From contig JABHWG010000058.1 in assembly GCA_018657885.1 (NCBI GenBank), positions 1 through 38,667 of the forward strand: a DNA stretch of 38,667 bases, given 5' to 3'. Within the stretch, counting starts at the first letter, position 1, and every line of letters starts with the position of its first letter. Under the pieces are notes generated by a model. The model did not search any database and was not told the origin of the DNA. It saw only the letters and a list, made by a program, of their open reading frames with translations. Positions 7,219 through 27,794 of the stretch are shown piece after piece. Origin of the DNA: Pelagibacteraceae bacterium. Its GTDB lineage: Bacteria > Pseudomonadota > Alphaproteobacteria > HIMB59 > GCA-002718135. Position numbers and translations under genes: made by a program.

Positions 7219-7234
7219 CTGAATATGCATTCAA
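7219..7234. promoter_or_regulatory. Putative BetI-like operator, promoter of aminotransferase-MFS-GNAT-HD operon
   Basis: CTGAATATGCATTCAA; its reverse complement (TTCATTGAATGCATATTCA) nearly matches the 26527 site (TTCATTGAATGCTTATTCA). Confidence 0.6.
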
Positions 7235-7253: not shown

Positions 7254-8030
7254 TTAGTTATCTTGCCATTTAGGATCAGTTTTTTTTACAAATGAAGACG
7301 CACCTTCTTTTAAATCCTGACTTCCATAGACTTTTTTAACAGTTTCCAATGATCTTAAGATTTTAAATGAAGGGATCTCCTTTTCATTCTCTGTTTCACG
7401 CAAAACTTCTTTAATTGAAGAGTAAATTAAATTAGGTCCATTTGAAATTTTTTCTGCTACTTCCCAAGCTCTTTTTAATAAATTATCTTTATTAACAATT
7501 TCATTAATCAAACCCCAATGCTTAGCTTCTTTAGTGTCCATCCATCTTCCAGTCATTAAAAACTCTACAGCTACGTGATAAGGAATTCTCCTCCTTAATT
7601 TAATTGTAGCTGCATCTGCAACGACTCCTACATTAATTTCAGGTAAAGCAAATGTTGCATGCTCAGATGCTATAATAATATCTGCTGAAATCATTATTTC
7701 AAAACCACCACCACAAGCAATACCATTTACGGCAGCAATAATAGGTTTATTCATTTTTGGTAATTCTTGTAATCCTCCAAACCCTCCAACTCCATAATCA
7801 GCGTCTGCAGCTTCCCCCTCATTAACGGCTTTTAAATCCCATCCTGCTGAAAAAAATTTTTCTCCAGCTCCAGTTATAATTGCTACTTTGAGATCAGGAT
7901 TATCTCTAAAGTCAGAAAATATGTCACCTAATATTATGCTTGTCTTAGCATCGATAGCATTAGCTTTTGGACGATCAATAGTGATTTCTAAGATTGAACC
8001 TTCAATTTTTGTTTTAACTGGTTTATCCAT
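7254..8030 (-). CDS. Enoyl-CoA hydratase/isomerase, likely crotonobetainyl-CoA hydratase (CaiD-like)
   Basis: IDRPKANAIDAKTS, ITGAGEKFFSAGWDLKAVNEG, NGIACGGGFEIMISADIIIASEHATFALPEI. Confidence 0.8.
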   Translation of the reverse strand: MDKPVKTKIEGSILEITIDRPKANAIDAKTSIILGDIFSDFRDNPDLKVAIITGAGEKFFSAGWDLKAVNEGEAADADYGVGGFGGLQELPKMNKPIIAAVNGIACGGGFEIMISADIIIASEHATFALPEINVGVVADAATIKLRRRIPYHVAVEFLMTGRWMDTKEAKHWGLINEIVNKDNLLKRAWEVAEKISNGPNLIYSSIKEVLRETENEKEIPSFKILRSLETVKKVYGSQDLKEGASSFVKKTDPKWQDN

Positions 8031-10070: not shown

Positions 10071-10073
10071 AGA

Positions 10074-11225
10074 TTATGCTCCAAGTGGTCTTAAAAGTGA
10101 ACGTGAAATAATATGTCTTTGAATTTCACTTGTGCCTTCCCAAATTCTTTCTATTCTTGCATCTCTCCATATTCTTTCAAGAGGTATATCTGACATTAAG
10201 CCCATACCACCACAAATTTGAATAGCTTCATCAGAAACTTTTCCAAGCATTTCTGTACAGAATAATTTTGTCATTGCTGCATCTTGAGAGGAGAGGGTTC
10301 TCTGATCAATTTTCCACGCTGATTCAAGAAGCATTAAGTTTGCTGCTCTTATATTTGTTGCCATATCTGCTAACTTAAATGAAACTCCTTGAAATTTACC
10401 AATTACTTTTCCAAATTGTTTTCTATTAGCGGACCAATCAAGAGCAATATCAAATGCTCGCTCAGCTCTTGAAACAGAAGTTGCCGCAACTGTTAATCGA
10501 GTTGCTTCTAACCAAACATTCATCAATTCAAAACCTTTATCTTTTTCGCCTAAAATATTTTTTGCGGGGATTCTACAATCATTAAAATGTATAATGTTAT
10601 TTACATACCCTCTATGGGAAACACAGTCATAGCCCTTCGCAACTTCAACACCTTTTTGATGGAGATCAACTAAAAAACAAGATAATAAATTTCTTCCTTG
10701 TTCACCTGTTCCAGTTGAGGCAAATAAAACAACAAAATCAGAAATGTGTGCGTTTGAAATAAAATGTTTTGTTCCATTAATAACCCAATCATCACCATCT
10801 TTTTTTGCATTAGTTTTCATTCCTCTAAGATCAGATCCTGCTTCAGGTTCTGTCATTGCAATACAGTCTTTTCTTTCACCTGTTATTGTTGGTTTTAAAT
10901 ATTCATCTATTAGTTCATCTTTACAAGCCATTAAAATATTTTGAGGTCTCCATGCTATTTCCGCTAAAGCTAAAGATGCAAAACCTAATTCTTTTTCAAC
11001 CAGTGTTAAATCAAACGCATTTAATCCGCCACCACCAAAATCTGTTGGCATGTTACAAGAATATAAACCTACTTCGATACTTTTCTTTTTAATTTCGTTG
11101 TAAAGTTCTTTTGGTAATTCATTTGTCTTTTCAAGATGTTCCTCGTGTTGAAGAAGTTCATTTTTAACAAATGATTTAGTTGTTTCAATGAGTAATGTTT
11201 GTTCTTCTGATAAATTAAAATCCAT
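10074..11225 (-). CDS. Acyl-CoA dehydrogenase, candidate gamma-butyrobetainyl-CoA dehydrogenase
   Basis: CIAMTEPEAGSDLRGMKTNA, RKQFGKVIGKFQGVSFKLADM, ICGGMGLMSDIPLERIWRDARIERIWEGTSEIQRHII. Confidence 0.85.
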   Translation of the reverse strand: MDFNLSEEQTLLIETTKSFVKNELLQHEEHLEKTNELPKELYNEIKKKSIEVGLYSCNMPTDFGGGGLNAFDLTLVEKELGFASLALAEIAWRPQNILMACKDELIDEYLKPTITGERKDCIAMTEPEAGSDLRGMKTNAKKDGDDWVINGTKHFISNAHISDFVVLFASTGTGEQGRNLLSCFLVDLHQKGVEVAKGYDCVSHRGYVNNIIHFNDCRIPAKNILGEKDKGFELMNVWLEATRLTVAATSVSRAERAFDIALDWSANRKQFGKVIGKFQGVSFKLADMATNIRAANLMLLESAWKIDQRTLSSQDAAMTKLFCTEMLGKVSDEAIQICGGMGLMSDIPLERIWRDARIERIWEGTSEIQRHIISRSLLRPLGA

Positions 11226-11229
11226 AATT

Positions 11230-12417
11230 TTATATATATGCTGGTATAGCGTTTTTCCTGTTATTATTAAAAAATTGTTTTTTTACTACTTCGCATTCAG
11301 CCCAAATCTTTTTATATTCAAGTTCTTCTGGGTGATAAATTTCTGCATACACTTTAGATCCTAACTTCATATGATTACTGTCTACATATCCCATAGCAAT
11401 ATTTGACTTTAGTGTTGGCGACCATATAGCTGCAGTAACGATTCCAATTTCTTTTTTATTGCTATCATACAGTACTGAACCATTTGCAGGTTTATCACCT
11501 TGAATATCTAAACCTACAAGTTTTTTATTTAATTTAGAGTTTTTTATTTTTTTTAAAGCTTTTTTTCCTGTGAAATAATTTTTTTCCAAATTTACTAACC
11601 AACTAAGACCTAACTCATATGGATTTTTCATTCTATTTGTTCTTAATGCTTGTTCAGCTGACATGAAATCCGCATTTGGCTGTATAAAACCAGCTTCAAT
11701 TCTTACCATATCAAGGGAATTCATACCTGCTGGTAATACTTTATAATCTCTATTAAATTTAAATAATGAGTCCCATACATTGAGAGCATCAGCAGGGTTA
11801 CACCAAATTTCATAACCTAGATCTCCAGAGAATCCAGTTCTAGAAATTAATACATCTGATTTATTTATTTTATAGTTCCCAAATTTAAATGGTTGTAAAT
11901 TTTCAATATCAGTTACTTTTAGTAAATTTAATATTTTACATGATAAAGGGCCTTGAAAAGCTAAAGCAGCAATTGTTTCAGTTATATCTTGAATTTTAAC
12001 ATTAAATCCAGTTGCAGTATCTGTAAACCAATTAAGATTTCTTTCTGCACACATAATTTTTAGATGATCTTCTTTCAAACAAAAAACAGTACCATCATCA
12101 ATAACATTACCGTCTTCATTACACCAAATGATATACATAATTTGATTAGGTTGAATTTTGGATACATCTCTTGTTACTAGCTTGTTTACAAACTCACGAG
12201 CTTGAACTCCTTTTATGTCATATTTATGCATTGGAGTAATATCAATAACGCCTGCTGTATTACGCATTGAGGTGTATTCTAATTCAGTACTGGAATACTC
12301 TTTAGCTATTTTATAACCAGCCCAACGATACCAATCATTATTGTAACAAGCTTCTAAAGTTCTTTCATGAAATGGTGTTTCTAAAAGAGGTTTTTTATAT
12401 GATAAATTTTTATTCAT
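11230..12417 (-). CDS. GcvT-like (aminomethyltransferase/THF-dependent demethylase family) protein
   Basis: GVIDITPMHKYDIKG, LVTRDVSKIQPNQIMYIIWCNEDGNVIDDG, ISRTGFSGDLGYEIWCNP, LPAGMNSLDMVRIEAGF. Confidence 0.8.
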   Translation of the reverse strand: MNKNLSYKKPLLETPFHERTLEACYNNDWYRWAGYKIAKEYSSTELEYTSMRNTAGVIDITPMHKYDIKGVQAREFVNKLVTRDVSKIQPNQIMYIIWCNEDGNVIDDGTVFCLKEDHLKIMCAERNLNWFTDTATGFNVKIQDITETIAALAFQGPLSCKILNLLKVTDIENLQPFKFGNYKINKSDVLISRTGFSGDLGYEIWCNPADALNVWDSLFKFNRDYKVLPAGMNSLDMVRIEAGFIQPNADFMSAEQALRTNRMKNPYELGLSWLVNLEKNYFTGKKALKKIKNSKLNKKLVGLDIQGDKPANGSVLYDSNKKEIGIVTAAIWSPTLKSNIAMGYVDSNHMKLGSKVYAEIYHPEELEYKKIWAECEVVKKQFFNNNRKNAIPAYI

Positions 12418-13883
12418 TATTTTTTCAAAAGTTGTTTAGAGGCATTAATAGCATTTATTCCAGTTATCCCTCCACCTGGATGAGTTCCTGCCCCACAAAT
12501 GTATAAACCATTAATAGGAGTTTCATATTGAGCTGATCCATAAAATGGTCTTATTATCAGTAATTGATCTATTTCCATATCTCCATGATGCCAATGTCCA
12601 CCTGAAGTATTATATTTCTTTTCCATTTCATTAGGTGTGTCAATTTCAAACTTAATAAGCTCATTATTATCAATGAAATTATTTAATATTAATTGAATAT
12701 TAGATTCAATTTCTTTTTTATCATGTGATCCATTTTTTAGATAAGGGATATAATACAAATTAGCTGAAATGTTTTTATTATCTATATAGAACTCTAAACA
12801 TGGTTTTTTTGAATAATTATTGTACTTATTATTATTAAATGCGTGCTCAATATACTTAATGTTGGGAGCATAGATAAATTTACTACCTATATATTTTTCG
12901 TCTAAATTTTTAATTTTAATAATATTTTTAAATTCTATTTTAACTTTTGCAACATTACCCTTGGATCTAAAATTTGTAACTCTTCTAATTAAGTCAGTAT
13001 CTAGCCTATCAGCTCCTATTAAATTTAAATATGTAGTCTTAGGATCAAGAGTAGAAATAATAGTTGAAGATTCAATTATATTTTGGTCATTCATTTCAAT
13101 ACCAGTCACTGTTTCATTATTGATTAACAATTTCTTAACTTCAGAAGACTTTAAAAATTCAACACCTCTATCATGGCAGCTTTGTTCAATTGAGCTAATT
13201 ATTTGCTCAGTATCTAAATTATTATTTCTAAATATTGATCCATTAATCGCATTTGAATAAAGTAAGGTTAATATGGAGCCAGGTGATCTTGGTCCAAGAT
13301 TAGAACCTAGCACAGCTTCGTTGCATAAAATCCCCATTAGATTATCATTGGTTAAGTTGTCCTCTAAGTCATCTGCTATATTTAAACCAATAACTCTTAA
13401 TAATTCTCTCATATTTTTTTTGCCAAGTTTTCTAACTTTCCAACCCATTGAAATTAGTTGCCATAAATCAGATTTATTCCCTGACTTAACTCTTGGTGGG
13501 GTATTAAACATGAATGAAGATAAGGTTTTAGCAAATAAGTTATATTTTTTAACAAGTTTTAGAAAACTATTCTGATCTTCTAAGCTGGCTTCACATTCAT
13601 TAAATTTTATGGAGTTATTTTCATCTATTTCTAAAACAGTATGGTTAAAGCTATCATTCAAACTAGTTACAAAAGTCCTTTTTTTCCTTGCGTTAATTTT
13701 TAAACCAAGTTGATCAATAACTTTTTTACTTAAGCTACTACTTGAATCAGCATATAGTGCTAATCCTCCTACCTTTTCATTTTTTTCAACTACTAAAACT
13801 TTTTTACCTGATTTTGATAGGTAAGAAGCTGCTGATAAACCATTTGGTCCAGCTCCAATAATAATGATATCAAAGTTTTTCAT
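12417..13883 (-). CDS. Phytoene desaturase-like (PYROXD2-type) FAD oxidoreductase, copy 2
   Basis: FDIIIIGAGPNGLSAASYLSKSGKKVLVVEKN; C-terminal LYICGAGTHPGGGITGINAINAS. Confidence 0.8.
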   Translation of the reverse strand: MKNFDIIIIGAGPNGLSAASYLSKSGKKVLVVEKNEKVGGLALYADSSSSLSKKVIDQLGLKINARKKRTFVTSLNDSFNHTVLEIDENNSIKFNECEASLEDQNSFLKLVKKYNLFAKTLSSFMFNTPPRVKSGNKSDLWQLISMGWKVRKLGKKNMRELLRVIGLNIADDLEDNLTNDNLMGILCNEAVLGSNLGPRSPGSILTLLYSNAINGSIFRNNNLDTEQIISSIEQSCHDRGVEFLKSSEVKKLLINNETVTGIEMNDQNIIESSTIISTLDPKTTYLNLIGADRLDTDLIRRVTNFRSKGNVAKVKIEFKNIIKIKNLDEKYIGSKFIYAPNIKYIEHAFNNNKYNNYSKKPCLEFYIDNKNISANLYYIPYLKNGSHDKKEIESNIQLILNNFIDNNELIKFEIDTPNEMEKKYNTSGGHWHHGDMEIDQLLIIRPFYGSAQYETPINGLYICGAGTHPGGGITGINAINASKQLLKK

Positions 13884-15508
13884 ATATAGTGTGTGTTTAT
13901 TTGTTTTCTAAGATCTATTAGTATTTCTCTAGCTGCATTTGCTCCAGGCGCACCCATTACACCACCTCCAGGATGAGTACTTGATCCACACATATAAAGG
14001 TTTTTGATAGGTGTTTTATATTGAGCATACCCTGGTATAGGTCTGTTAAACATCAGTTGATCCATAGTTAATTCACCTTGAAAAATATTACCTTCCGTTA
14101 ATCCTACTTCTTGCTCTAATTCTTTTGGCGTTCTTATTTCAGCATGGTTAATAATATCATTAAAATTTGTTGAATAGCTTCCAATCCTATTCATAACATG
14201 CTCGCCAAATTCTAATTTTTTGTCTTCTGTCCATCCTCCATTAGCTAAGTTGTAAGGAACGTATTGTACAAATACAGACATATAATGTTTTCCTTGGGGA
14301 GCCATAGTGGGATCATTGATACTGGGAATACACATATCTACATAAGGTAAAGAGGACCACCTACAATCCTTCCAATCATCATATGCACCTTCCATCTCTT
14401 CAATGCTTTGTGTAATATGTAAGTCACCAGTTCCAGCTGGATCTCCTTCAGGAATACTTTTCCAAATTGGTAGATCGTCTAAAGCGATATTTAATTTTCC
14501 TGATGAACCTCTAATTTTAAAATTTTTAACTGCATTGTAAAAATCTTCAGGCAATTCTTTTTTTTCAACCACTTTAAGAAAAGTTCTTTTTACATCTAGA
14601 TTGGAAACAATTTTATTTGCGTAAATTTCATCTCCATTTTCTAAAACTATTCCATAACTTTTATTATTTTTAATTAAAATTTCAGTAACAGGGGAGCCAG
14701 CTTTTATCTCACCATCACTTGCTTTTAGTGAAGCTGCCATTGCTTTTGTAATAGATCCCATTCCACCTCTTGAGTATCCCCAAGCTCCAACTGTGCCATC
14801 AACCTCACCCATATAATGATGCAATAGGACATAAGCAGAGCCAGGAGAGTAGGGTCCTAATGCAGTGCCTATAATTGCAGAACCAGCAAGATGTGCTTTT
14901 ACAATATCAGATTCAAAATATTCCTCTAAATAATCCCGTACACTCATTGTCCAAAAACGAATGGTATCGTAAATCTCTTTTTCTCCTAAGCCTCCTAGTT
15001 CGTCCTTTGCTGCAAAAAATTTTGCAAAATCTAATAATCCCATTATATCTTTAGGTGCAAATGACGTAGGATCCGGAGGAGTCATTTTTAAGAGAGGTTT
15101 AATTATTTTACATTGCCTCATAACATCTTTACCAAACCTATCATAAGCTTCTGCATCTTTTTTTGAAAATTGAGCAATTGAACGGTAAGTTAAGTCATGG
15201 TCATTATAATGAGCGTAGTATCTTCCATCATCAAGCATTGACGCGCTTCCTTCATAAGGAATAATTTGAAGTCCATATTTTGATAATTCAAGATCTCTAA
15301 AAATCTCGGGACGTAATAAGCTGCATACATACGAGCAATTGGAATATGTCCATCCAGGATGTATTTCACGACTGACAGCTGCTCCACCGACATAGCTTTG
15401 TTTTTCTATAACTACTACTTTTAGGCCAGCTTTTGCCAAATAACACGCTGTGGTTAGCCCATTATGACCACCACCAATTATCGCTACGTCATAAATTGAT
15501 TTTGACAT
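13880..15508 (-). CDS. Phytoene desaturase-like (PYROXD2-type) FAD oxidoreductase, copy 1
   Basis: YDVAIIGGGHNGLTTACYLAKAGLKVVVIEKQSYVGGAA; LYMCGSSTHPGGGVMGAPGANAAREI; ATGA overlap with next gene. Confidence 0.85.
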   Translation of the reverse strand: MSKSIYDVAIIGGGHNGLTTACYLAKAGLKVVVIEKQSYVGGAAVSREIHPGWTYSNCSYVCSLLRPEIFRDLELSKYGLQIIPYEGSASMLDDGRYYAHYNDHDLTYRSIAQFSKKDAEAYDRFGKDVMRQCKIIKPLLKMTPPDPTSFAPKDIMGLLDFAKFFAAKDELGGLGEKEIYDTIRFWTMSVRDYLEEYFESDIVKAHLAGSAIIGTALGPYSPGSAYVLLHHYMGEVDGTVGAWGYSRGGMGSITKAMAASLKASDGEIKAGSPVTEILIKNNKSYGIVLENGDEIYANKIVSNLDVKRTFLKVVEKKELPEDFYNAVKNFKIRGSSGKLNIALDDLPIWKSIPEGDPAGTGDLHITQSIEEMEGAYDDWKDCRWSSLPYVDMCIPSINDPTMAPQGKHYMSVFVQYVPYNLANGGWTEDKKLEFGEHVMNRIGSYSTNFNDIINHAEIRTPKELEQEVGLTEGNIFQGELTMDQLMFNRPIPGYAQYKTPIKNLYMCGSSTHPGGGVMGAPGANAAREILIDLRKQINTHYI

Positions 15509-15527: not shown

Positions 15528-15543
15528 TTGAATGACCATTCAA
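15528..15543. promoter_or_regulatory. Putative BetI-like operator in divergent FAD oxidoreductase/TetR promoter
   Basis: Perfect 7+2+7 palindrome TTGAATG-AC-CATTCAA in the 63-bp divergent intergenic region next to the TetR gene. Confidence 0.7.
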
Positions 15544-15571: not shown

Positions 15572-16231
15572 ATGAAAAAATATTCTTTTTTTGAATATAA
15601 AATGAATAATAGAAATCAGAGATTAGCAAATAAGAAAAATAGTAATTTAAAACTTATTTCTTCAACAATTAAAAATTTATCAAAAAAAGGTATTAATGAG
15701 TTAACAATGCATGATGTATCAAGCGGAGCAGGGTTATCTCAAGGTATTGTTAATTTTCATTTTAAAAGTAAAGAAATCCTATTAATTGAGACGTTAAAAT
15801 TTATATCAAATGAATATTTAAAATCATTTGATAAATATATTAAAAAATCAGGTAATGATCCAATTATGAAACTAGTAAATATGATTAATAATGATTTTAG
15901 CTCAAAGATTTGCTCACCTGAAAAAATTTCTGTTTGGTTTACTTTTTTAAGTGAAACAAAATTTAAACCTGCTTACCGTCAAATATGTAGAGAAAGAGAT
16001 CTATATTATCAAAATGTTACAGAAGATATATTTGATGAATTAATTAAAATTGAAAAAAACAAATTGTCTAAAAAAAACTTAGCTATTGCTTTCCATGCTT
16101 TAATTATGGGACTATGGCTTAATCAATTAGATGAGCCAATGAAGTACAACAGAAGAGATTCAAAAAAAATTTGTTTAGATTATCTAAAATCACATTTTCC
16201 AAAACAATTTAAAGAAATAAAAAATGTATAG
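15572..16231 (+). CDS. TetR/AcrR regulator, BetI-like
   Basis: HTH INELTMHDVSSGAGLSQGIVNFHFKSKEILLIETL; BetI-like C-terminal segment with RQICRERDLYYQNV. Confidence 0.75.
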   Translation: MKKYSFFEYKMNNRNQRLANKKNSNLKLISSTIKNLSKKGINELTMHDVSSGAGLSQGIVNFHFKSKEILLIETLKFISNEYLKSFDKYIKKSGNDPIMKLVNMINNDFSSKICSPEKISVWFTFLSETKFKPAYRQICRERDLYYQNVTEDIFDELIKIEKNKLSKKNLAIAFHALIMGLWLNQLDEPMKYNRRDSKKICLDYLKSHFPKQFKEIKNV

Positions 16232-17402
16232 TGGAATGACTCCTGAGGCCCTAGAGTGGCAAAAAAAAATAAGAAAATTTGTTAATGATGAACTCATACC
16301 TTGGGAAGTTCATGCTGAAAAAAATGAAGGAGAATTACCAAAAGATATAGGAAAAAAACATCGAGATATTGCAATTTCTTTAGGACTCCCTGGTATGGGA
16401 ATATCAAAAAAAAACGGGGGACTGGGATTAAATATGTTTGAACAAATGATTATTTGGGAACAGTTAGGTCGTGTTACTAATGCTTTGTGTTGGTGTTTTT
16501 CAGAGGCACAAGATTGGATGGAATTAAATTTCAATGATTTTCAAAAAGAGAATTATTTAAAACCGCTTTTAAAAGGAATAAAAAAAGAATGTTATGCAAT
16601 TACTGAAAAAGGTGCGGGCTCTGATGTAGATGGTTCTATAGAGTCTACTGCTGAAAAAAAAGAAAATCAATACATAATAAATGGTGAAAAATGGTATGTG
16701 ACTAGTGCAAATCTTGCCAATTTTTTCTTTTTACAAGCAAAAATTAAATCCGGTCAAAATAAAGACAAACACTCACTTTTTATAATTGATAAAGACACAG
16801 AAGGTATTGAATTAATAGATACTCCTAAATTTAGTCATACTTACGCTCATCATCACAGTATTTATCGTTTTAATAACGTTTCTATCCCCTCTAAAAATAT
16901 AATAGGTAACGAAGGTATAGGAATGGATTATACACATTCTTGGTTTAGACATGAAAGATTGGGAATAGCAGCTAGATGCTGTGGGGCAGCTGAAAGATTG
17001 ATTGATGAAGCAACAGTTTTTGCAAAAGAAAGAGAGTCTTTTGGAGGTAAAATATCGAATTATCAGGCAATACAATTTATGCTTGCAGATTGTGTAAATG
17101 AATTAGCATCAACCAGATTAATGCTTTATGAAATTTGCAAAGCACATGATGCAAAACAAGGTGTTAAAATTTTGCATGGAAAATGTTCTATGGTTAAGTT
17201 AATGGCATCGGAAATGGCTAATAGAGTAGCAGATAGGGCAGTCCAAATTTTTGGAGGTAGGGGCTATATGAGAGAAAATGTTGCTGAAAGATATTATAGG
17301 GAACTGCGAGTAGATCGTATTTGGGAAGGGACGAGTGAAATTCATAGAATAATAATTGCAAATTCTCTTTATAAGAGAGGTTTAAAATCTTTAATTGAAT
17401 AA
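16224..17402 (+). CDS. Acyl-CoA dehydrogenase (second copy)
   Basis: AITEKGAGSDVDGS, IQFMLADCVNELASTRL, IFGGRGYMRENVAERYYRELRVDRIWEGTSEIHRII; overlaps end of TetR gene. Confidence 0.85.
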   Translation: MYSGMTPEALEWQKKIRKFVNDELIPWEVHAEKNEGELPKDIGKKHRDIAISLGLPGMGISKKNGGLGLNMFEQMIIWEQLGRVTNALCWCFSEAQDWMELNFNDFQKENYLKPLLKGIKKECYAITEKGAGSDVDGSIESTAEKKENQYIINGEKWYVTSANLANFFFLQAKIKSGQNKDKHSLFIIDKDTEGIELIDTPKFSHTYAHHHSIYRFNNVSIPSKNIIGNEGIGMDYTHSWFRHERLGIAARCCGAAERLIDEATVFAKERESFGGKISNYQAIQFMLADCVNELASTRLMLYEICKAHDAKQGVKILHGKCSMVKLMASEMANRVADRAVQIFGGRGYMRENVAERYYRELRVDRIWEGTSEIHRIIIANSLYKRGLKSLIE

Positions 17403-17422: not shown

Positions 17423-18307
17423 ATGATAGGTTTTTGGAGAAAGATTTACGCAAAACATGATAATGTGAAAGCTTATAGTTTATTATCACCAGCTTTAATT
17501 TTAATTATTTTAGCTATGGTCGTACCAATGGCACTAATGTTGAGCTTTAGTATGTTTACTCAAGTTAGCATGATGGAGATTGATTATACTTTTACATTTC
17601 AAAGATATATTGATTTCTTTCAAAAAAGTTTGTTGGTTACACTTCTCATAAAGTCAATTAAAATATCATTTCTTGTAACTCTAATTACACTTATCACGGC
17701 ATATCCAGTTTGCTATTACATCGCTTTTTATGTCAAAAAAAACAAAATGCTGTGGCTTGTTTTGCTCACTTTGCCTTTTTGGACATCTTATTTATTAAGA
17801 GTATTTTCTTGGAAGATTATTCTTGGAACTAAAGGTGTGATAAACTCTTCATTGATCAACGCTGGAATTCTTAGTGAACCTCTTACATTTCTTATGTATT
17901 CTGAGACCGCAGTAGTGATTACTCTAACTCATGCATGGGCAGCATTTGCCTTACTACCTTTATATGTTTCGTTAGAAAAAATTGATTTTTCTTTAATTGA
18001 AGCTGGAAGAGATCTTGGACTCTCTCGACTTGAAGTGTTTTGGAAAATTACATTCCCATTATCGTTACCTGGTGTAATAGGTGCAATATTAATCATATTC
18101 ATTCCAACAGTAGGTGATTATGTGACTCCAGCCTTACTTGGAGGAATTGATGGTCGTATGCTTTCGAATATGATCCAGGCTTACTTTGGAAAAATTAATA
18201 ATATCCCTATGGGTGCTGCATCAGCTACAATTATGCTAACAACTGTTGTACTCATAACAATAATTGTGTCGAATGTAACAAAAAAACTTACTCAACGGTT
18301 AACTTAA
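17423..18307 (+). CDS. potB: ABC transporter permease, PotB-like
   Basis: Pot-type permease; EAGRDLGLSRLEVFWKITFPLSLPGVIGAILIIFIPTVGDYVTPALLGG. Confidence 0.85.
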   Translation: MIGFWRKIYAKHDNVKAYSLLSPALILIILAMVVPMALMLSFSMFTQVSMMEIDYTFTFQRYIDFFQKSLLVTLLIKSIKISFLVTLITLITAYPVCYYIAFYVKKNKMLWLVLLTLPFWTSYLLRVFSWKIILGTKGVINSSLINAGILSEPLTFLMYSETAVVITLTHAWAAFALLPLYVSLEKIDFSLIEAGRDLGLSRLEVFWKITFPLSLPGVIGAILIIFIPTVGDYVTPALLGGIDGRMLSNMIQAYFGKINNIPMGAASATIMLTTVVLITIIVSNVTKKLTQRLT

Positions 18308-18309
18308 AC

Positions 18310-19119
18310 ATGAACGAAAAAAATAGTACATTACTGATTTATACCCTTCTTTATTTTGGGTTTCTATATGTACCAGTTTTATTCTTACCTATATTTAGTT
18401 TTAACGATGCAGATTATATGTCATTCCCTCTCGCTGGATTTACAACGGAGCACTATGAAGAGATGTGGTCAAAAAGAAATTTACATAAAGCTCTATGGGC
18501 GAGTATAAAAGTAGGAGTAGTTGCGAGTGTCGTTAGTACAATAATTGCACTTTTTGCAGCGAAGGCATTTGCTCGATATAAATTTAGAGGAAATAAGATC
18601 TCTTATGGAGCTATTATGATGCCATTTTTGATACCTGAAATTATCTTGGCTGTAGCTATACTTATAATTTGGGTCAATCTTGGATTTAAATTGGGGCTCA
18701 TTCCAGTCACAATTGGCCACACTTTATTTTGCACACCATTTGCAATGTTAATACTTATAGCACGTATTGAAGGTTTTGATTTTTCACTTGAAGAGGCCTC
18801 TAGAGATTTAGGAGAGAATGCGTGGGGAACATTTTTTAGAGTGTCATTTCCATTGTATTTTCCTGGAATAATCGCAGCTCTTCTTCTCAGTTTCATAATT
18901 TCTTTTGATGAATTTATTCTTGCATTCTTTTTAACTGGAAGTGACGCAACGTTACCTATGTATATGTGGGGTCAAATGAGATTTGTTCAGAGGCTACCTC
19001 ATGTATTGGCTTTGGGAGCAGTAATTATTGTGTTCACTACTTTTTTTGTTTTGTTAGCATTCTGGTTAAGAAATGTTGGACAAGAGAAAGCAAAGAAAGA
19101 TATAGGTATAAAATTATGA
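18310..19119 (+). CDS. potC: ABC transporter permease, PotC-like
   Basis: EASRDLGENAWGTFFRVSFPLYFPGIIAALLLSFIISFDEFILAFF. Confidence 0.85.
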   Translation: MNEKNSTLLIYTLLYFGFLYVPVLFLPIFSFNDADYMSFPLAGFTTEHYEEMWSKRNLHKALWASIKVGVVASVVSTIIALFAAKAFARYKFRGNKISYGAIMMPFLIPEIILAVAILIIWVNLGFKLGLIPVTIGHTLFCTPFAMLILIARIEGFDFSLEEASRDLGENAWGTFFRVSFPLYFPGIIAALLLSFIISFDEFILAFFLTGSDATLPMYMWGQMRFVQRLPHVLALGAVIIVFTTFFVLLAFWLRNVGQEKAKKDIGIKL

Positions 19120-20210
19120 ACAATTCATTTATTCAGATCAATAATATCTCAAAACATTTTGTAGATGTAAAAGCAGTTGACGATGTTTCATTTGAGATTA
19201 AAGAAGGTGAATTTTTTTCACTTTTAGGACCCTCTGGATGTGGTAAGACAACATTGTTGAGGCTATTGGCAGGATTTGAATACCCTACTTCTGGCAATCT
19301 ATTAATTGATGGAACAGATATTACTGCATTACCTCCAGACAAAAGACCTACAAATATGGTTTTTCAAAACTATGCAATTTTTCCTCATCTTAATGTAGAA
19401 AAAAATATTAAATTTGGACTAAGAAAACTTGGCTTAAGTAATGATGAGATTGATAAACGAGTTAAGGATATTCTTACATTAGTTAAGCTTAAAGGGTATG
19501 AGGAAAGATTTAGTAATCAACTATCTGGTGGTCAAAGACAGCGTGTCGCTCTTGCAAGAGCTTTAGTAAGACAACCAAAAGTTCTACTATTAGATGAACC
19601 TCTAGGTGCTTTAGATAAAAAATTAAGAGATGAAATGCAATTAGAATTAAGAACTCTTCAAAAAAATATCGGAATTACTTTTATATTTGTTACCCACGAT
19701 CAACAAGAAGCCATAAGTATGTCAGACAGAGTTGCGGTTATGAACGATGGAAAAATTCAACAATTATCTGCACCTAATGAATTGTATAAGAATCCAGAAA
19801 ATATATTTGTAAGTGATTTTATTGGTGAAACGAATTTTCTTAAAGCTGAGACTAACTCAAGTGATGGAGAATTCATCAATGTTTCAATCGAAGAATTGGG
19901 AGAATTTAAAATTAAAAATAATTTAAATATTCCTGCAAATTCTTCAGATGTTGTTTGTACTGTTCGCCCAGAATCAATGATGATCGATAAAGAAAAATCT
20001 GACTGGGATATTTGTCTTGATGCTAAGATTTGTCAGACTTCATATTTAGGAGAAATGACAAGATTTTATGTTGAGGCTAAAGGGATAGACAAGATAATCA
20101 CTGTTTCTTCTCAATATTTTAATAATCAGTCTTTTGATAATAATGAATGTTTTATAAGTATTAGTTTAGAAGATATTTCTATATTAAATAAAAAAAAGCC
20201 TGTCCTCTAA
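19116..20210 (+). CDS. potA: ABC transporter ATPase, PotA-like
   Basis: Walker A LLGPSGCGKTTLLR, signature QLSGGQRQRVALARAL, Walker B VLLLDEPLGALD. Start reset from 18966 to ATG 19116 (ATGA overlap with potC). Confidence 0.88.
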   Translation: MNNSFIQINNISKHFVDVKAVDDVSFEIKEGEFFSLLGPSGCGKTTLLRLLAGFEYPTSGNLLIDGTDITALPPDKRPTNMVFQNYAIFPHLNVEKNIKFGLRKLGLSNDEIDKRVKDILTLVKLKGYEERFSNQLSGGQRQRVALARALVRQPKVLLLDEPLGALDKKLRDEMQLELRTLQKNIGITFIFVTHDQQEAISMSDRVAVMNDGKIQQLSAPNELYKNPENIFVSDFIGETNFLKAETNSSDGEFINVSIEELGEFKIKNNLNIPANSSDVVCTVRPESMMIDKEKSDWDICLDAKICQTSYLGEMTRFYVEAKGIDKIITVSSQYFNNQSFDNNECFISISLEDISILNKKKPVL

Positions 20211-20228
20211 AAGAGAACAGGTTTTTTT
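20190..20228. terminator. Bidirectional Rho-independent terminator between convergent potA and substrate-binding gene
   Basis: aaaaaaa-gCCTGTcCTCT-aaa-AGAGaACAGG-ttttttt: near-perfect stem with one mismatch, A and T tracts on both sides; stem begins inside potA 3' codons. Confidence 0.85.
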
Positions 20229-20247
20229 GAAATAAATAAATTTCTGA

Positions 20248-21336
20248 TTAACCGCCAGCAACCATTTCAGCCCATTGAGCTTCCATGTAGTCAGTTACTT
20301 CGTCTGAAGGCATGACTGAGAACATCCCATTTGAAAGGTGTTTCTCAGGATTCGATGCGACTCCACGCTCAGCTAGTTCATCAGCAGTGATTGTGCTAAA
20401 GCCTTTTCTATTTGAATGACCATAACCCCACTCACTTAGTAAGTAAGCTGAAGTTTCAGCACTAGTAGCTCCATTAATCATAGCATATGCTTTATCAAGG
20501 TCTGCCCCTTTAACAATTGCAAGCCCACAAGCCCACGTCATTGTTCCATTAGCAGGCTGCATCATTTTTGCTCCAGCATTCCAAGCAATTTCATTCCATC
20601 CAAGAGCTACGTCTATTTCTTCGTTACCTAGCGCCTCTATCATTGAGGAAGTATCTCCGAAGAACGCACGTATTTGTCCACTATCTCTCATTTCACGAAA
20701 CTTATTGATGCCTTTATCAATAGCAGCTTTAGTTAATTGATCTTTTTCTCTGATATCAATTCCAAGATGATGCATCATTAAAAATAATGAGTCAGCAGCT
20801 GAGTCTAGTATACCAACTTTACCTTTCACTCTTGGATCTTCCATTAGAGAAAAACTTTCATTGTCAGCGTTCATCCATGGAATTCTATCAGGCATATAAA
20901 ATAAAGTCGTATCACCCCAATCGATTGGTGCAAAATAGTTCTCACCATTAACAATACCGCTAGGTAGGTCTCTGACTTCAGGGAACATATCATTCCAGTT
21001 ATCGATACGAGAAGTGTCTAATGGTTGAAGTACTCCAGCTCTTACCCATCGAGCTATTTCACCTTGGCAAGGCCAAGCTAAATCTACTTCAAAACCAGCT
21101 TTTAATTTTTGTAAACCTTCTTCAGCATCACCAAATATTGAGTATTCAGGTGATCCATGTTCTTCTGCATATGATCCAAATAGTCCATCATCATCATATC
21201 CTCCCCATAGAAAAACACTTCCAGGTTCATCCGCAAAAACCTTTGATGTGGTAAATAATCCGGTTATAAAAACCATCAATATTACTACCCCAAAAGTTTT
21301 TACTAAAAAATTTTTAGTTTCATAGTATTTAAACAT
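20248..21336 (-). CDS. potD: Periplasmic polyamine/quaternary-amine-type ABC substrate-binding protein, PotD-like
   Basis: Signal-like N-terminus; DAEEGLQKLKAGFEVDLAWPCQGEIARWVRAGVLQPLDTSRIDNW, fold signature of PotD/PotF family; convergent with potBCA. Confidence 0.8.
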   Translation of the reverse strand: MFKYYETKNFLVKTFGVVILMVFITGLFTTSKVFADEPGSVFLWGGYDDDGLFGSYAEEHGSPEYSIFGDAEEGLQKLKAGFEVDLAWPCQGEIARWVRAGVLQPLDTSRIDNWNDMFPEVRDLPSGIVNGENYFAPIDWGDTTLFYMPDRIPWMNADNESFSLMEDPRVKGKVGILDSAADSLFLMMHHLGIDIREKDQLTKAAIDKGINKFREMRDSGQIRAFFGDTSSMIEALGNEEIDVALGWNEIAWNAGAKMMQPANGTMTWACGLAIVKGADLDKAYAMINGATSAETSAYLLSEWGYGHSNRKGFSTITADELAERGVASNPEKHLSNGMFSVMPSDEVTDYMEAQWAEMVAGG

Positions 21337-21529: not shown

Positions 21530-22915
21530 ATGACCTCTAAAAATAAAAAAGTTTTAATAGCTACAGTTGATGAATTTAATTCTTTTAAAGATAAAAATCC
21601 TCAAATTAAATACATAGATGCTATATTAAGTGATTTGTCAGGAATTATTAGAGGTAAAAGATTGCCAATTGAAGAAGCTCATAAACTTTTTATCACTGGC
21701 GTACAGTTTTGTTATTCGACATTTCTTTTAGATACCTCTGGGTATTGTCCAGATGCAAATGGTAGAGGGATTGCTGATGGTGATCCTGATGCAAATTATT
21801 ATCCTGTATCTAATACATTGAAAATTATGCCTTGGCATAAAGATGAACTAGCTCAAGTGTTAATTACTATTCAGGATGACTCAAGATATGATTCTACTGT
21901 TGACCCAAGAAATTTACTGGCACATGTTTGGGATCGATTTGAAGGTTTGAAATTAAAAATAAAAGTAGCTTTTGAATTAGAATTTTATTTAATCGCTAGA
22001 AGAAAAAACCTTAGTGAAAAACCTATCCCTGCAAGCTCTAAGAGAACTGGAAAACAAAGTGAGGGTACACAAGTTTATAGTATGAGTGATTTAGATGATT
22101 TTTATGAATTTTTAGAAGATGTAAATGAATATTGTAAAATTCAGAATATTCCTGCTTCTACAGCCTCATCTGAATTTGCACCAGGTCAATTTGAAATTAA
22201 CTTAAACTACACTGATAATATTTTAAAAGCAGCTGATGATGCTTCTTTATTAAGAAGGGTTATTAAAGAAACAGCTATTAAACATGAATATGAAGCTACC
22301 TTTTTATCTAAACCTTTTCTTAATGAAGCAGGGAGTGGAATGCATGTACATATAAGTTTATTTGATCAAAATAATGAAAATATATTTTGTGATAAAGATG
22401 GAAATGATTCTAAAGAGCTTTTTTATGCTATTGGAGGCCTACAGAATATAATGTTTGATTCATTTGCATTTTTTGCCTCCAATGAAAATGCATATAGACG
22501 TTTTGAGCCAGATATTTTTGTGCCAGTTAATACATCTTGGGGGCATAATAATAGATCAGTAGCATTTAGAATACCAGTGAGCAATAATAAGGCAAAAAGA
22601 ATTGAGCACCGAGTTGCAGGAGCTGAAGCAAATTCTTATTTAGTTTTAGCATCAATACTTTCTGGAATTGAAGATGGGCTAATTAATAAGCTTAAAGCTT
22701 CGAATCCCAGAGAGGATAATGCTTGTAAAGATCCTGACCCTAGAATGCCAAAAAATATTGATCAAGCTTTATTGATGCTTGAGTCATCTGTTTTAATGAA
22801 AAAATATCTTACTGAAGAATATATAAAAGTATTTGTAGAATTGAAAAGGAAAGAGCAAGATTCTTTCAGAGGAGAAATTTCTGATATTGAATATAAGTGG
22901 TATCTTAATCTTTAG
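21530..22915 (+). CDS. puuA: Gamma-glutamylputrescine synthetase-like (glutamine synthetase family)
   Basis: PQIKYIDAILSDLSGIIRGKRLPI, VAFELEFYLI, EFAPGQFEINL, GSGMHVHISLFD, IEHRVAGAEANSYLVLASILSG. Confidence 0.8.
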   Translation: MTSKNKKVLIATVDEFNSFKDKNPQIKYIDAILSDLSGIIRGKRLPIEEAHKLFITGVQFCYSTFLLDTSGYCPDANGRGIADGDPDANYYPVSNTLKIMPWHKDELAQVLITIQDDSRYDSTVDPRNLLAHVWDRFEGLKLKIKVAFELEFYLIARRKNLSEKPIPASSKRTGKQSEGTQVYSMSDLDDFYEFLEDVNEYCKIQNIPASTASSEFAPGQFEINLNYTDNILKAADDASLLRRVIKETAIKHEYEATFLSKPFLNEAGSGMHVHISLFDQNNENIFCDKDGNDSKELFYAIGGLQNIMFDSFAFFASNENAYRRFEPDIFVPVNTSWGHNNRSVAFRIPVSNNKAKRIEHRVAGAEANSYLVLASILSGIEDGLINKLKASNPREDNACKDPDPRMPKNIDQALLMLESSVLMKKYLTEEYIKVFVELKRKEQDSFRGEISDIEYKWYLNL

Positions 22916-23774
22916 TTTCACCGTTAAGGCTAAGTATCTCTTTATATAGTTCAGGTCTCCTATCTCTAAAAAGCCCCCAATTTCTTCTGAAAAGATGATT
23001 TTCTTCAGTGTCTATTTCAGCCAATATAACTTCCTCTTGATCTTTTGAGGCTTCAGCAATTATTTTACCTGATCGATTACAAATAAAAGATTTTCCATAG
23101 AAACCATTAACTTGACCTTTTACTGATTCTGAACCAATTCTATTAGAGGCAACAACAGGCATTATGTTAGCAGCAGCATGACCTTGCATTACAGTTTGCC
23201 ATGCATCTGAACTATCATAAGTGCTCATGATTTCATCTCCAATAGCTGTAGGATAAAACAAAACCTCCGCACCTTTTAAAGCCATTATTCTCGCAGCTTC
23301 AGGAAACCATTGATCCCAACAAATGCCAATACCAATTTTACCATAAGCTGTGTTCCAAATTTTAAAACCAGTATCACCTGGATTAAAATAATACTTTTCA
23401 AGATATCCAGCGCCATCAGGTATGTGCGATTTTCTGTATTTGCCTAGCACTTTACCATCAGCGTCAATAACTGCTATGGAATTAAAATATGCATTATTAT
23501 CTTTTTCAAAAAAACTAATAGGTAAAACAACTTTATGTTTTTTTGCAACTTCACTCATTTTTTTTATTAAAGAATTATTCTCAAAAGGTTGAGCTAATTT
23601 AAATATTTTCTCATCATATTGGATACAAAAATAAGGAGTTTGAAAGAGCTCTTGTAATAAAATTATATTCGCCCCTTGCTCAGCAGCTTTTTCGATTAAA
23701 TGAATAGATTTTTTTATATTATTTTCTATTTCCCAATCACAACTCATTTGAGTTGCAGCTATTTTAATTTTCAT
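22905..23774 (-). CDS. aguB: N-carbamoylputrescine amidase
   Basis: Nitrilase fold with ILLQELFQTPYFC (Glu), KYRKSHIPDGAGYLEKYYF (Lys), KIGIGICWDQWFPEAARIMALKGAE (Cys); neighbour of aguA. Confidence 0.9.
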   Translation of the reverse strand: MKIKIAATQMSCDWEIENNIKKSIHLIEKAAEQGANIILLQELFQTPYFCIQYDEKIFKLAQPFENNSLIKKMSEVAKKHKVVLPISFFEKDNNAYFNSIAVIDADGKVLGKYRKSHIPDGAGYLEKYYFNPGDTGFKIWNTAYGKIGIGICWDQWFPEAARIMALKGAEVLFYPTAIGDEIMSTYDSSDAWQTVMQGHAAANIMPVVASNRIGSESVKGQVNGFYGKSFICNRSGKIIAEASKDQEEVILAEIDTEENHLFRRNWGLFRDRRPELYKEILSLNGETKD

Positions 23775-23989
23775 TTTTTATTCTCTTTTTCTCTTCTAAG
23801 TAATTATGTAAAGTTATAATTTTTTTTCTTGCATTTGTTTGGAAGAAAGCTAGTATTAGAGAGTTAATAAATGCCATCATAGAAGCTTTAAGTAATTGAA
23901 ATGATATATTTTGAGCTACAGACATATGTTGAAAATAAGTTTCATTATCATCAATGTAGTGCTTTTTTTGATTTTTTAAAAAAATTCAT
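23764..23989 (-). pseudogene. DUF6356-like small protein gene, one-nucleotide frameshift in A7 run (or programmed slippage / sequencing error)
   Basis: Removing one A from the A7 (minus strand, 23963-23969) restores a 74-aa ORF MNFFKKSKKHYIDDNETYFQHMSVAQNISFQLLKASMMAFINSLILAFFQTNARKKIITLHNYLEEKKRIKNEN; family-like ETYFxHM...LH pattern; stop overlaps aguB start by 11 nt. Confidence 0.55.
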
Positions 23990-23991
23990 TT

Positions 23992-25035: not shown

Positions 25036-25170
25036 TCAATCAGTTACTTTACAGTTTGTATATTTTGTAAATAAAAAATAACCTTTTTTACCTTTTTTAT
25101 TTGTTAAATCAATACAACCTTCTAAAAAAATGAAGGAATAAAATAAAGTAAAACAAATTATTTTTTATCA

Positions 25171-26508
25171 TTAATTTTTATCTATATACTTGTAATAAGC
25201 TAAGGCCAATCTTAAGTAAAATAATCTTAGTTTTGGAAAAGGAAATTTGCTTGGCAATCCTTTGTAAAGTTTTGATATATTTAAATCTTTACTGTTAGAT
25301 ATGATTAATTTTGCAAGTTCATTACCTGACCACGGCGCTGTATTCACTCCGTTTGCCTGATAACCAAAACTATAATATATTTCATCATCTTCGATTTTCC
25401 CTATTGATGGTGAAAATTTCGTTGTTACTGCAACTAGTCCTCTCCAATGAAAATCAATATTAACATTATTCCAGTTGGGAAAAACCTTTTTCATTTGTTG
25501 CTCCATATTTTTAGATTTTTCTAATGAAGATTTTTCACTACCAATCAAATCTCCTCTTGCTCCAAATAAAAATCTATTATCTTTCAATAACCTATAATAA
25601 AAAAGAAGATTTCTTATGTTCAAAACTGGGTTGTTTGTAATAAAATTATGAGATCTAATTTCTTCAGTTGTAAGTGGCCGTGTAATAATAATATTTGATA
25701 TTACTGGTAAAATCATATTATTAAGTTTTGGAAAGATGTCATCTTTATAAAAACCGTTAGTAGCCATTACAACTTTATTCGCTTTTATAATGCTACCATT
25801 TGAAATTATTGTGAATTTACCTTTAGTTTTTTCAATTTTTGTAACTTTACTTTTTTGAAATATTTTAACCCCAGCATTATTAGCTGCATTCGCTAGTCCT
25901 AATAAGAATTTTAATGGATTAATTGCAAAACCAGGTTTATATGACATAGCTCCATACTGCTCATTGCCACCATGACCTATTTCATTAAATTCTTCTTTGG
26001 AAAAAACCTTTGTTTCAATTCCAAATTCTTTTTTATATGTTTCAGCCTCTTCTTTTATACCTTCAAAATAACTTGGATGAGGAGCAACTTCATAGTTACT
26101 ATCCCCTGTCAAATCACAATCTATATTGTATTCCTTAATCGTATTTTTTGTAAAATTTGAACCTTCAATAGTATTTTGAAAAAATTTTTTCGTTTCATTT
26201 TTTCCATATTTATTAAACATCTTTTTAATAGATATTTTTGCTGGTGGGATGCAGCAGAAGCCAGCATTTCTTCCAGATGAACCCCAACCAATATGACCTG
26301 CCTCAAGTAATACTACATCTTCATTATATTTCTTTGCTAATGACAATGCACATGACAATCCAGTATAACCACCTCCTATTATTACTACATTTGCACTCAT
26401 ATCTTTGTCTAACGTTTTATATCTATCTTTTGTATTTATTGTAGATTCCCAGTAACTATTTACCGGGTTTTCAAAATTATAAATGTCTTTGTGATATAGG
26501 TTAGCCAT
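25171..26508 (-). CDS. FAD-dependent amine oxidase (DadA/PuuB-like)
   Basis: ANVVIIGGGYTGLSCALSLAKKYNEDVVLLEAGHIGWGSSGRNAGFC; C-terminal YYSFGYQANGVNTAPWSGNELAKLI. Confidence 0.8.
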   Translation of the reverse strand: MANLYHKDIYNFENPVNSYWESTINTKDRYKTLDKDMSANVVIIGGGYTGLSCALSLAKKYNEDVVLLEAGHIGWGSSGRNAGFCCIPPAKISIKKMFNKYGKNETKKFFQNTIEGSNFTKNTIKEYNIDCDLTGDSNYEVAPHPSYFEGIKEEAETYKKEFGIETKVFSKEEFNEIGHGGNEQYGAMSYKPGFAINPLKFLLGLANAANNAGVKIFQKSKVTKIEKTKGKFTIISNGSIIKANKVVMATNGFYKDDIFPKLNNMILPVISNIIITRPLTTEEIRSHNFITNNPVLNIRNLLFYYRLLKDNRFLFGARGDLIGSEKSSLEKSKNMEQQMKKVFPNWNNVNIDFHWRGLVAVTTKFSPSIGKIEDDEIYYSFGYQANGVNTAPWSGNELAKLIISNSKDLNISKLYKGLPSKFPFPKLRLFYLRLALAYYKYIDKN

Positions 26509-26526
26509 AATTTAGTATAAATTTCA

Positions 26527-26542
26527 TTGAATGCTTATTCAA
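26527..26542. promoter_or_regulatory. Putative BetI-like operator in divergent PuuB-like/Rieske promoter
   Basis: TTGAATGCTTATTCAA, one position off perfect symmetry, matching the 15528 palindrome at 13 of 14 arm positions. Confidence 0.65.
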
Positions 26543-26561
26543 TCAATATTATATAATAGAT

Positions 26562-27794
26562 ATGAATAATGCTGATTTAAAAAACTTAATTCATAAGCAA
26601 AAGCTTAATTTTTCTCTCGATCAGGAATTTTATATCAATCATGATATCTTTGATTTAGATATTAAAAATATTTTTTCTAAACAGTGGGTTTTTGTAGGTC
26701 ATATTTCAAGAATACCAAACCATGGTGATTATTTTCTTTTTAATATTGGTAAAGAGTCAATAATCATAGTTCGAGATAATGATAATTCAGTGCATGCTCA
26801 CTACAATGTATGTCGTCATCGTGGTTCTAAAATTTGTTTAGAGGATGAAGGTAATTCAAAAGCTCTTATTTGCCCTTATCATGCTTGGACATACAATTTA
26901 GATGGATCTTTAAAGGGAGCAAGACTTATGGGTAAAGATTTTAATAAAAAAGATTGGCATTTGCATAAGTGTAACTCAAAAATATTTGAAGGCTTAATAT
27001 TCATTAATTTATCTGATAATCCAAATGATTTTGAAGAATTCATTGCCCCTACAAAAAAATTTATAGAATTTCATGGTTTATCAGACGCCAAAATTGCTCA
27101 TAGACAGTATTACCCTACAAATGGCAACTGGAAACTTACTCTTGATAATTTTCATGAATGTTATCACTGTCAACCTGCTCACCCAGAGTATTGTCAGGTT
27201 CATGATAAAGATTATATTGTAGCCTATGGTGCTGGAAGTAATACAGGTCCTGCATCAGAAAAATTTGATAACATTTTAGTCAAATGGAATAAAAATGTTG
27301 AAAAAATGGGGCATTTAACAGGTGAATATTATGAAATAGAATTTAATGATTATTCAAGAAGCGCTGAGAGAACGCCATTAAAAGAGGGCATGTTTACAGA
27401 AACTAAATCAGGAAAACCTATCTCCAAATTAATGGGTAAATTTACAGATTATGATAGTGGCTATACATCTGTGGGTACTTCACCATTCAATAGTCTGCTT
27501 ATGTGTAATGATTTTGCGACTCTCTTTACTTTTATTCCAGTATCACCTTTATATACCCAGGTAGAATTAATGTGGTTAGTTCATAAAGATGCTGAAGAAG
27601 GAAGAGATTATAATCTTGAAGAAATGAAATGGATGTGGGATGTAACTACCATTGCAGATAAAAGAATTATAGAAAATAATCAAAAGGGCGTTCTATCAGA
27701 TAAATATGTTCCTGGACCATTATCTCAAATGGAAAAAGGTTTAGAAAAATTTAAGTCTTGGTATTTGAGACATTTAGAAAATAGTATTAGTTAG
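26562..27794 (+). CDS. Rieske-type oxygenase alpha subunit, GbcA/CntA/choline monooxygenase-like
   Basis: Rieske C-R-H-R-G ... CPYHAWTYNLDGSLKGA; mononuclear Fe site DNFHECYHCQPAHPEYC. Confidence 0.85.
   Translation: MNNADLKNLIHKQKLNFSLDQEFYINHDIFDLDIKNIFSKQWVFVGHISRIPNHGDYFLFNIGKESIIIVRDNDNSVHAHYNVCRHRGSKICLEDEGNSKALICPYHAWTYNLDGSLKGARLMGKDFNKKDWHLHKCNSKIFEGLIFINLSDNPNDFEEFIAPTKKFIEFHGLSDAKIAHRQYYPTNGNWKLTLDNFHECYHCQPAHPEYCQVHDKDYIVAYGAGSNTGPASEKFDNILVKWNKNVEKMGHLTGEYYEIEFNDYSRSAERTPLKEGMFTETKSGKPISKLMGKFTDYDSGYTSVGTSPFNSLLMCNDFATLFTFIPVSPLYTQVELMWLVHKDAEEGRDYNLEEMKWMWDVTTIADKRIIENNQKGVLSDKYVPGPLSQMEKGLEKFKSWYLRHLENSIS

Follow-up and report, generated by a model that had tools for sequence, protein, structure and literature searches.

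A conserved palindrome and a predicted TetR regulon joining Rieske oxygenase, amine oxidase and agmatine genes in a marine alphaproteobacterium

Are the genes for agmatine breakdown in this Pelagibacteraceae bacterium switched together with a Rieske oxygenase gene that stands back to back with them, and if so by which regulator? The window (the whole 38,667-nucleotide stretch of contig JABHWG010000058.1 analysed here) carries a palindrome at position 26527, in the 53-bp gap between the two divergent transcription units. The original prediction called it a BetI-like site through which a quaternary-amine sensor governs both agmatine and quaternary-amine catabolism. The gene layout on either side is as that prediction described it, with the Rieske gene on the plus strand and the oxidase, aguA, small ORF and aguB genes on the minus strand:

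26562-27794, plus strand: Rieske oxygenase alpha subunit, Group V type (GbcA/Stc2/CntA-like), CxxC at residues 200/203 (profile and alignment; PMC10952381)
26550-26555, plus strand: TATATA, the predicted -10 box for Rieske transcription, spaced 17 bp from the TTGAAT arm
26527-26542: operator-like palindrome TTGAAT-GCTT-ATTCAA (TTGAATGCTTATTCAA), FAD1/Rieske divergent promoter
26514-26519, minus strand: TATACT, the predicted -10 box for FAD1 transcription, spaced 17 bp from the TTGAAT arm
25171-26508, minus strand: FAD1, DAO-family amine oxidase, a distant PuuB/AmaA relative (domain and profile matches)
25036-25170, minus strand: small lipoprotein-like ORF in the FAD1-aguA gap, open in L083, L087-L089, L091 and L115
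23992-25035, minus strand: aguA, agmatine deiminase (PAD_porph 380 bits; TIGR03380 343 bits, cut-off 381.8)
23775-23991, minus strand: DUF6356 small ORF in the aguA-aguB gap, conserved in relatives (DUF6356 62 bits in the L083 copy)
22905-23774, minus strand: aguB, N-carbamoylputrescine amidase (TIGR03381 442 bits, above the cut-off of 410)

In this assembly both small ORFs carry frameshifts at runs of A, whereas relatives have them open; the frameshifts may be either sequencing error or real loss.

Operator-like palindromes and their candidate regulator

Exact copies of TTGAAT-N4-ATTCAA (a 16-letter palindrome with 12 letters in its arms) occur twice in the window, at 26527 and 15528 only, against a shuffled mean of 0.03. 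The 1.63-Mb assembly holds three, the third lacking the G at position 7. By sequence statistics, then, the palindrome at 26527 is real and beyond chance. A position-specific scoring matrix (PSSM) built from the exact sites added a weaker site at 7219, the only one that is a fresh prediction from the matrix, and this site is kept in all seven genomes with the same gene order. The same scan gave no conserved site at GS1, GS2/FAD2 or potD, and a weak TTAAAT..ATTCAA precedes GS1 in a few relatives. Two-mismatch sites are at chance level, as are single-mismatch sites genome-wide (18 vs 14 in the control), among which just the 7219 site stood out, by its conservation. An Rfam search returned nothing credible. 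The genes around the two further palindromes are as follows:

17423-20210, plus strand: potB, potC and potA, encoding a polyamine-type ABC transporter, in the same direction as the TetR gene
16224-17402, plus strand: ACD2, acyl-CoA dehydrogenase, overlapping the end of the TetR gene
15572-16231, plus strand: TetR-family regulator with a BetI-type C-terminal domain, the predicted regulon repressor
15528-15543: operator-like palindrome TTGAAT-GACC-ATTCAA, TetR/CrtO2 divergent promoter
13880-15508, minus strand: CrtO2, CrtO-like FAD oxidoreductase heading the leftward run from 15528, 72-74% identical to the SAR11 copy
12417-13883, minus strand: CrtO1, second CrtO-like FAD oxidoreductase, in the same run
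11230-12417, minus strand: GcvT/DmdA-like aminomethyltransferase in the same run, predicted to act in THF-dependent demethylation
7254-11225, minus strand: ACD1, CoA ligase and CaiD-like hydratase, prolonging the CrtO2-CrtO1-GcvT run
7219-7234: CTGAAT-ATGC-ATTCAA, a weaker palindrome 23 bp ahead of the aminotransferase gene (PSSM match)
5814-7196, minus strand: class III aminotransferase (AT), behind the 7219 site
67-1266: RamB-like protein

The regulator encoded beside the 15528 palindrome matches TetR_N and TetR_C_6, the latter at 42.5 bits (cut-off 27), which gives it a BetI-type C-terminal domain. It scores below both BetI models, however (TIGR03384, 89.8 vs 201.3 bits; PRK00767, 84.9 vs 118 bits), and its identity to E. 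coli BetI is 24%. The palindrome shows the same partial likeness: its arms match the TTGAA/TTCAA arms of TTGGACGTTCAA, the palindrome in the divergent E. coli betI-betT gap, near which amine catabolism genes also lie, but they are spaced by 6 instead of 2. The canonical BetI box (TTGAACGTTCAA) occurs in the window at chance level, and betA, betB and betT were not seen there. We therefore rejected BetI as the identity of this protein and regard it, from its profile scores, as BetI-type. Thus the likeness of the arms stands, the BetI spacing does not, and the proposed quaternary-amine sensor finds no support, nor does the suggestion that agmatine and quaternary amines have a substrate in common.

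Taken together, the sites suggest a simple scheme. The TetR protein would act as a repressor that binds TTGAAT-N4-ATTCAA at three promoters of the island. The first would be its own, with ACD2-potBCA in one direction and CrtO2-CrtO1-GcvT-ACD1-CoA ligase-CaiD in the other, the second that of the aminotransferase at 7219, and the third that of FAD1 and the Rieske gene at 26527. At this third promoter both arms coincide with the predicted -35 boxes of the divergent promoters, so that a bound dimer would shut both. The regulon would serve uptake and oxidative breakdown of cationic amines.

That same coincidence also admits a reading in which the palindrome is no TetR-binding site: the -35 boxes of two back-to-back promoters would simply overlap there, conserved for the sake of transcription alone. 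Indeed, both arms read TTGAAT, and TATA-type -10 boxes (TATANN on the FAD1 side) lie 17 bp off in 22 of 22 related loci; some of the conservation of the 26527 site could stem from its overlap with -35 boxes. We nevertheless hold this reading to be very unlikely: towards the TetR gene, the 15528 site is poorly spaced from a -10 box; aminotransferase promoters, which are not divergent, bear the palindrome too, in both bacterial groups discussed below; and the pattern is rare anywhere in relatives that lack the TetR gene.

Conservation in relatives and in SAR11

The original prediction named conservation of the neighbourhood in related genomes as a check, and the neighbourhood is conserved among carriers of the TetR gene. 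Full-length Rieske orthologues (81-100% identity) are present in 8 of 61 genomes of the same order, and the TetR protein (71-100%) in the same eight. All eight carriers have TTGAATG-N3-ATTCAA at both promoters. The 53 order-relatives without TetR and Rieske genes hold five scattered matches in all, and none has two. A Fisher test on the presence of two or more sites gives 3.4e-10, a value to be read in the light of the relatedness of the eight carriers, which are not independent. Gene order is kept wherever contigs allow, with one rearranged end (G034).

In a wider collection the Rieske-side palindrome is exact in 22 related loci whose Rieske identity is 68-95%; their records are titled uncultured Alphaproteobacteria, MarineAlpha5 bins and one Pelagibacteraceae bin. 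The TetR-side palindrome is found in 13 of 13 related genomes with a 66-100% TetR. Three metagenome-assembled genomes (L098-L100) have the Rieske-side site and no detected TetR gene, their contigs stopping before its expected position. In three loci (L088, L089, L115) an insert of about 2 kb separates the Rieske gene from GS2.

The genome of a Pelagibacteraceae bin, FRAM18_bin072 (L118), encodes a 37% homologue of the TetR protein, and its single TTGAATG-N3-ATTCAA adjoins CrtO2. Among 97 relatives of this genome, 41 have a TetR match. The palindrome preceding CrtO2 is exact in 28 of the 30 SAR11 loci examined and has one mismatch in the other two, and the SAR11 TetR homologues are 36-41% identical to that of the window. 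We read eight SAR11 regions. In these, CrtO2-CrtO1-GcvT-AT-Rieske-FAD1-potBCA forms one same-strand run beside the homologous TetR gene, with potD opposite. A second palindrome lies upstream of the aminotransferase in six of the eight, in the GcvT-AT gap (TTGAACAGCTGTTCAA in four regions, TTGAATAGCTATTCAA in one and TTGAATGAGCGTTCAA in one); the two regions with a short gap have none. This promoter is non-divergent and bears TTGAAC-AGCT-GTTCAA, a symmetric change of both arms, which favours the site of a dimeric protein over a pair of -35 boxes.

Could another regulator bind the operator, for example the RamB-like protein at 67-1266, whose gene flanks the cluster in several relatives as well? 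Three TetR-negative relatives with no palindrome in the locus retain RamB, and the eight SAR11 regions showed no such gene, whereas the palindrome tracks the TetR gene across two orders. We consider binding by such a protein exceedingly improbable. On the evidence of sites and gene order, the Rieske/FAD1, TetR, CrtO/GcvT, AT and Pot genes very likely form one TetR regulon.

Two observations concern SAR11 separately. PotBCA and PotD of the window (17423-21336) share 83-92% identity with their SAR11 counterparts in several regions (L199-L205), where the nearby GcvT and AT are 54-56% identical; other relatives have a different pot type, about 41-70% identical. The pot cassette thus looks as if it had been exchanged between the window lineage and SAR11. 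A second Rieske-type protein at L118:10001-11080 lacks the segment bearing the iron-sulphur ligands, by deletion or assembly error.

Agmatine genes as a lineage-specific addition

Two lines of evidence bear on whether the agmatine genes belong to the predicted regulon. First, in the window the small ORFs close the FAD1-aguA and aguA-aguB gaps, with starts touching stops. Separate promoters for aguA and aguB, which the original prediction had set down as counting against it, were looked for in the sequence and not seen. Second, at most related loci the agu genes lie behind FAD1 and co-directional with it, at gaps that include -1, 3, 5, 9 and 34 bp and reach 176 bp (for aguA itself, -1, 5, 34, 75 or about 130-176 bp). 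FAD1, the lipoprotein-like ORF, aguA, DUF6356 and aguB would thus form one packed operon whose transcription switches agmatine degradation with the Rieske gene. This tight packing makes co-control likely, and co-transcription of FAD1, aguA and aguB is likely in the window, though it is not universal among relatives. In L092, L095 and L099, some 1.9 kb separates FAD1 from aguA, with an ABC exporter-like gene on the same strand between them in L092 and similar gaps in the other two.

It may be argued instead that the regulon comprises the Rieske, FAD1, CrtO/GcvT, AT and Pot genes, and that aguA and aguB are mere neighbours with a promoter of their own. The eight SAR11 regions gave no match to aguA or aguB, and in L100 and L102 opposite-strand genes part aguA from FAD1. 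In addition, three TetR-negative genus relatives (G029, G022, G004) run ramB-carnitine DH-BKACE-4HBT-o3622, then aguA-aguB-potDABC, then GS2-FAD2 at the same locus (L232-L234), with no palindrome in the region examined. The co-directional arrangement at most loci, with the small ORFs of the window type, speaks against mere neighbourhood; moreover, where aguA has been displaced (L100, L102), a paralogue of it still follows FAD1 by 9 bp. We judge independence of the agmatine genes unlikely.

Such a second AguA-type gene lies directly behind FAD1 in G034/L097, L096, L100 and L102. The paralogues (L096:7618-8592, L097:7633-8607, L100:2835-3833, L102:7585-8592) read GGGGPGCIT rather than GGGNIHCIT at the catalytic-cysteine motif, a change that suggests a different deiminase substrate. 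The AguA of the window is full-length and has GGGNIHCIT, yet stays below the TIGR03380 cut-off.

The TetR-negative genus relatives offer a further comparison. Their AguA and AguB are 34-35% and 47-55% identical to those of the window, and a similar agu-pot order recurs in three genomes from the other family of the order. In TetR-bearing genomes a regulon block of about 22 kb occupies the slot of aguA-aguB-potDABC. AguB-type genes have at least a weak match in 57 of the 61 order genomes, which indicates that agmatine use is independent of the TetR regulon. From these distributions the agmatine genes appear to be a lineage-specific addition, the regulon core being common to SAR11 and aguA/aguB having joined only in this, probably AEGEAN-169/HIMB59-type, lineage.

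In sites, conservation, gene order and promoter spacing the proposed regulatory link is real, and it is wider than originally proposed: one palindrome covers the promoters of the Rieske gene and of FAD1-aguA-aguB and also marks those of the TetR, CrtO/GcvT and aminotransferase genes. The agmatine part of the link is confined to one lineage. We think it probable that the TetR protein represses from the palindromes at all three promoters, with the agmatine genes co-switched with the Rieske gene and a regulon core common to SAR11.

Comparison with known systems

In SAR11 bacteria, functions for carbon oxidation are reported often to be free of transcriptional regulation, and PotD ranks among the most abundant proteins (PMC8437039). 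The predicted TetR-operator pair, which two orders have kept together with potBCA, a Rieske oxygenase and genes for folate-type demethylation, offers a concrete, testable regulon. In two groups of bacteria abundant in the ocean, its palindrome lies in the control regions of a single set of genes for uptake and breakdown of cationic nitrogen compounds. In the parts consulted, PMC8437039 does not describe a TetR/CrtO/GcvT/Rieske regulon, and no published description was found in the literature consulted on homarine, carnitine/butyrobetaine, SAR11 regulation and BetI regulons. SAR11_1303/1304 (PMC3160333), considered as a published counterpart, are described beside a glycine betaine transporter, and we do not equate them with the present genes.

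The Rieske protein has its Rieske and Ring_hydroxyl_A domains in a single alpha subunit, like the Group V oxygenases GbcA, Stc2 and CntA. Its C200/C203 pair (motif ECYHC) is invariant in eight orthologues, and a CxxC pair by the mononuclear iron site is a feature of some Group V members (PMC10952381). The nearest solved chain is Stc2-type (3vca, 279 bits), and a quaternary ammonium substrate is putative here. Unlike that group's GbcA, it scores 341.8 bits against a GbcA equivalog cut-off of 670, and an NAD_binding_1-type reductase domain (PF00175) had no match in the 84%-complete window genome. In several Bacteroidota a Rieske orthologue (62-67%) has a pair of CrtO-like genes and one GcvT-like gene next to it, which supports a role in demethylation with the oxygenase acting alongside CrtO/GcvT; the Bacteroidota checked have neither the TetR gene nor the palindrome. 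We infer that the Rieske and CrtO/GcvT proteins jointly demethylate their substrate.

The Puu gamma-glutamylation pathway of E. coli (puuA/puuB) offers a second comparison. GS1 is 38% identical to PuuA, FAD2 (at 29221) 37% to PuuB, and a polyamine-type transporter lies alongside. Differences are that FAD1 and GS2 are only 29% identical to PuuB and PuuA, respectively, that GS1, GS2 and FAD2 have no operator, and that the regulator is of TetR type and not PuuR. The "PuuB-like" oxidase next to the Rieske gene is so only distantly, the name fitting FAD2 better.

In polyamine use, the window resembles SAR11 (PMC8437039) in its PotABCD-type uptake, and in SAR11 the pot genes lie within the regulon run. 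Since they stand beside methylated-amine genes, the substrates of Pot may exceed plain polyamines. It is conceivable, though rather improbable, that the regulon degrades N-methylated or quaternary polyamines, with Pot for uptake, Rieske and CrtO/GcvT for demethylation, FAD1, AguA-type deiminases and AT taking the amine or guanidino end, and one TetR protein governing both SAR11 and AEGEAN-169/HIMB59 types.

For agmatine, PMC8437039 assigns the SAR11 activity to agmatinase (speB). The window instead follows the AguA-AguB route in having both enzymes adjacent and AguB above its cut-off, and departs from it in that their genes follow an amine-oxidase gene and a palindrome of TetR type that they share with a Rieske oxygenase.
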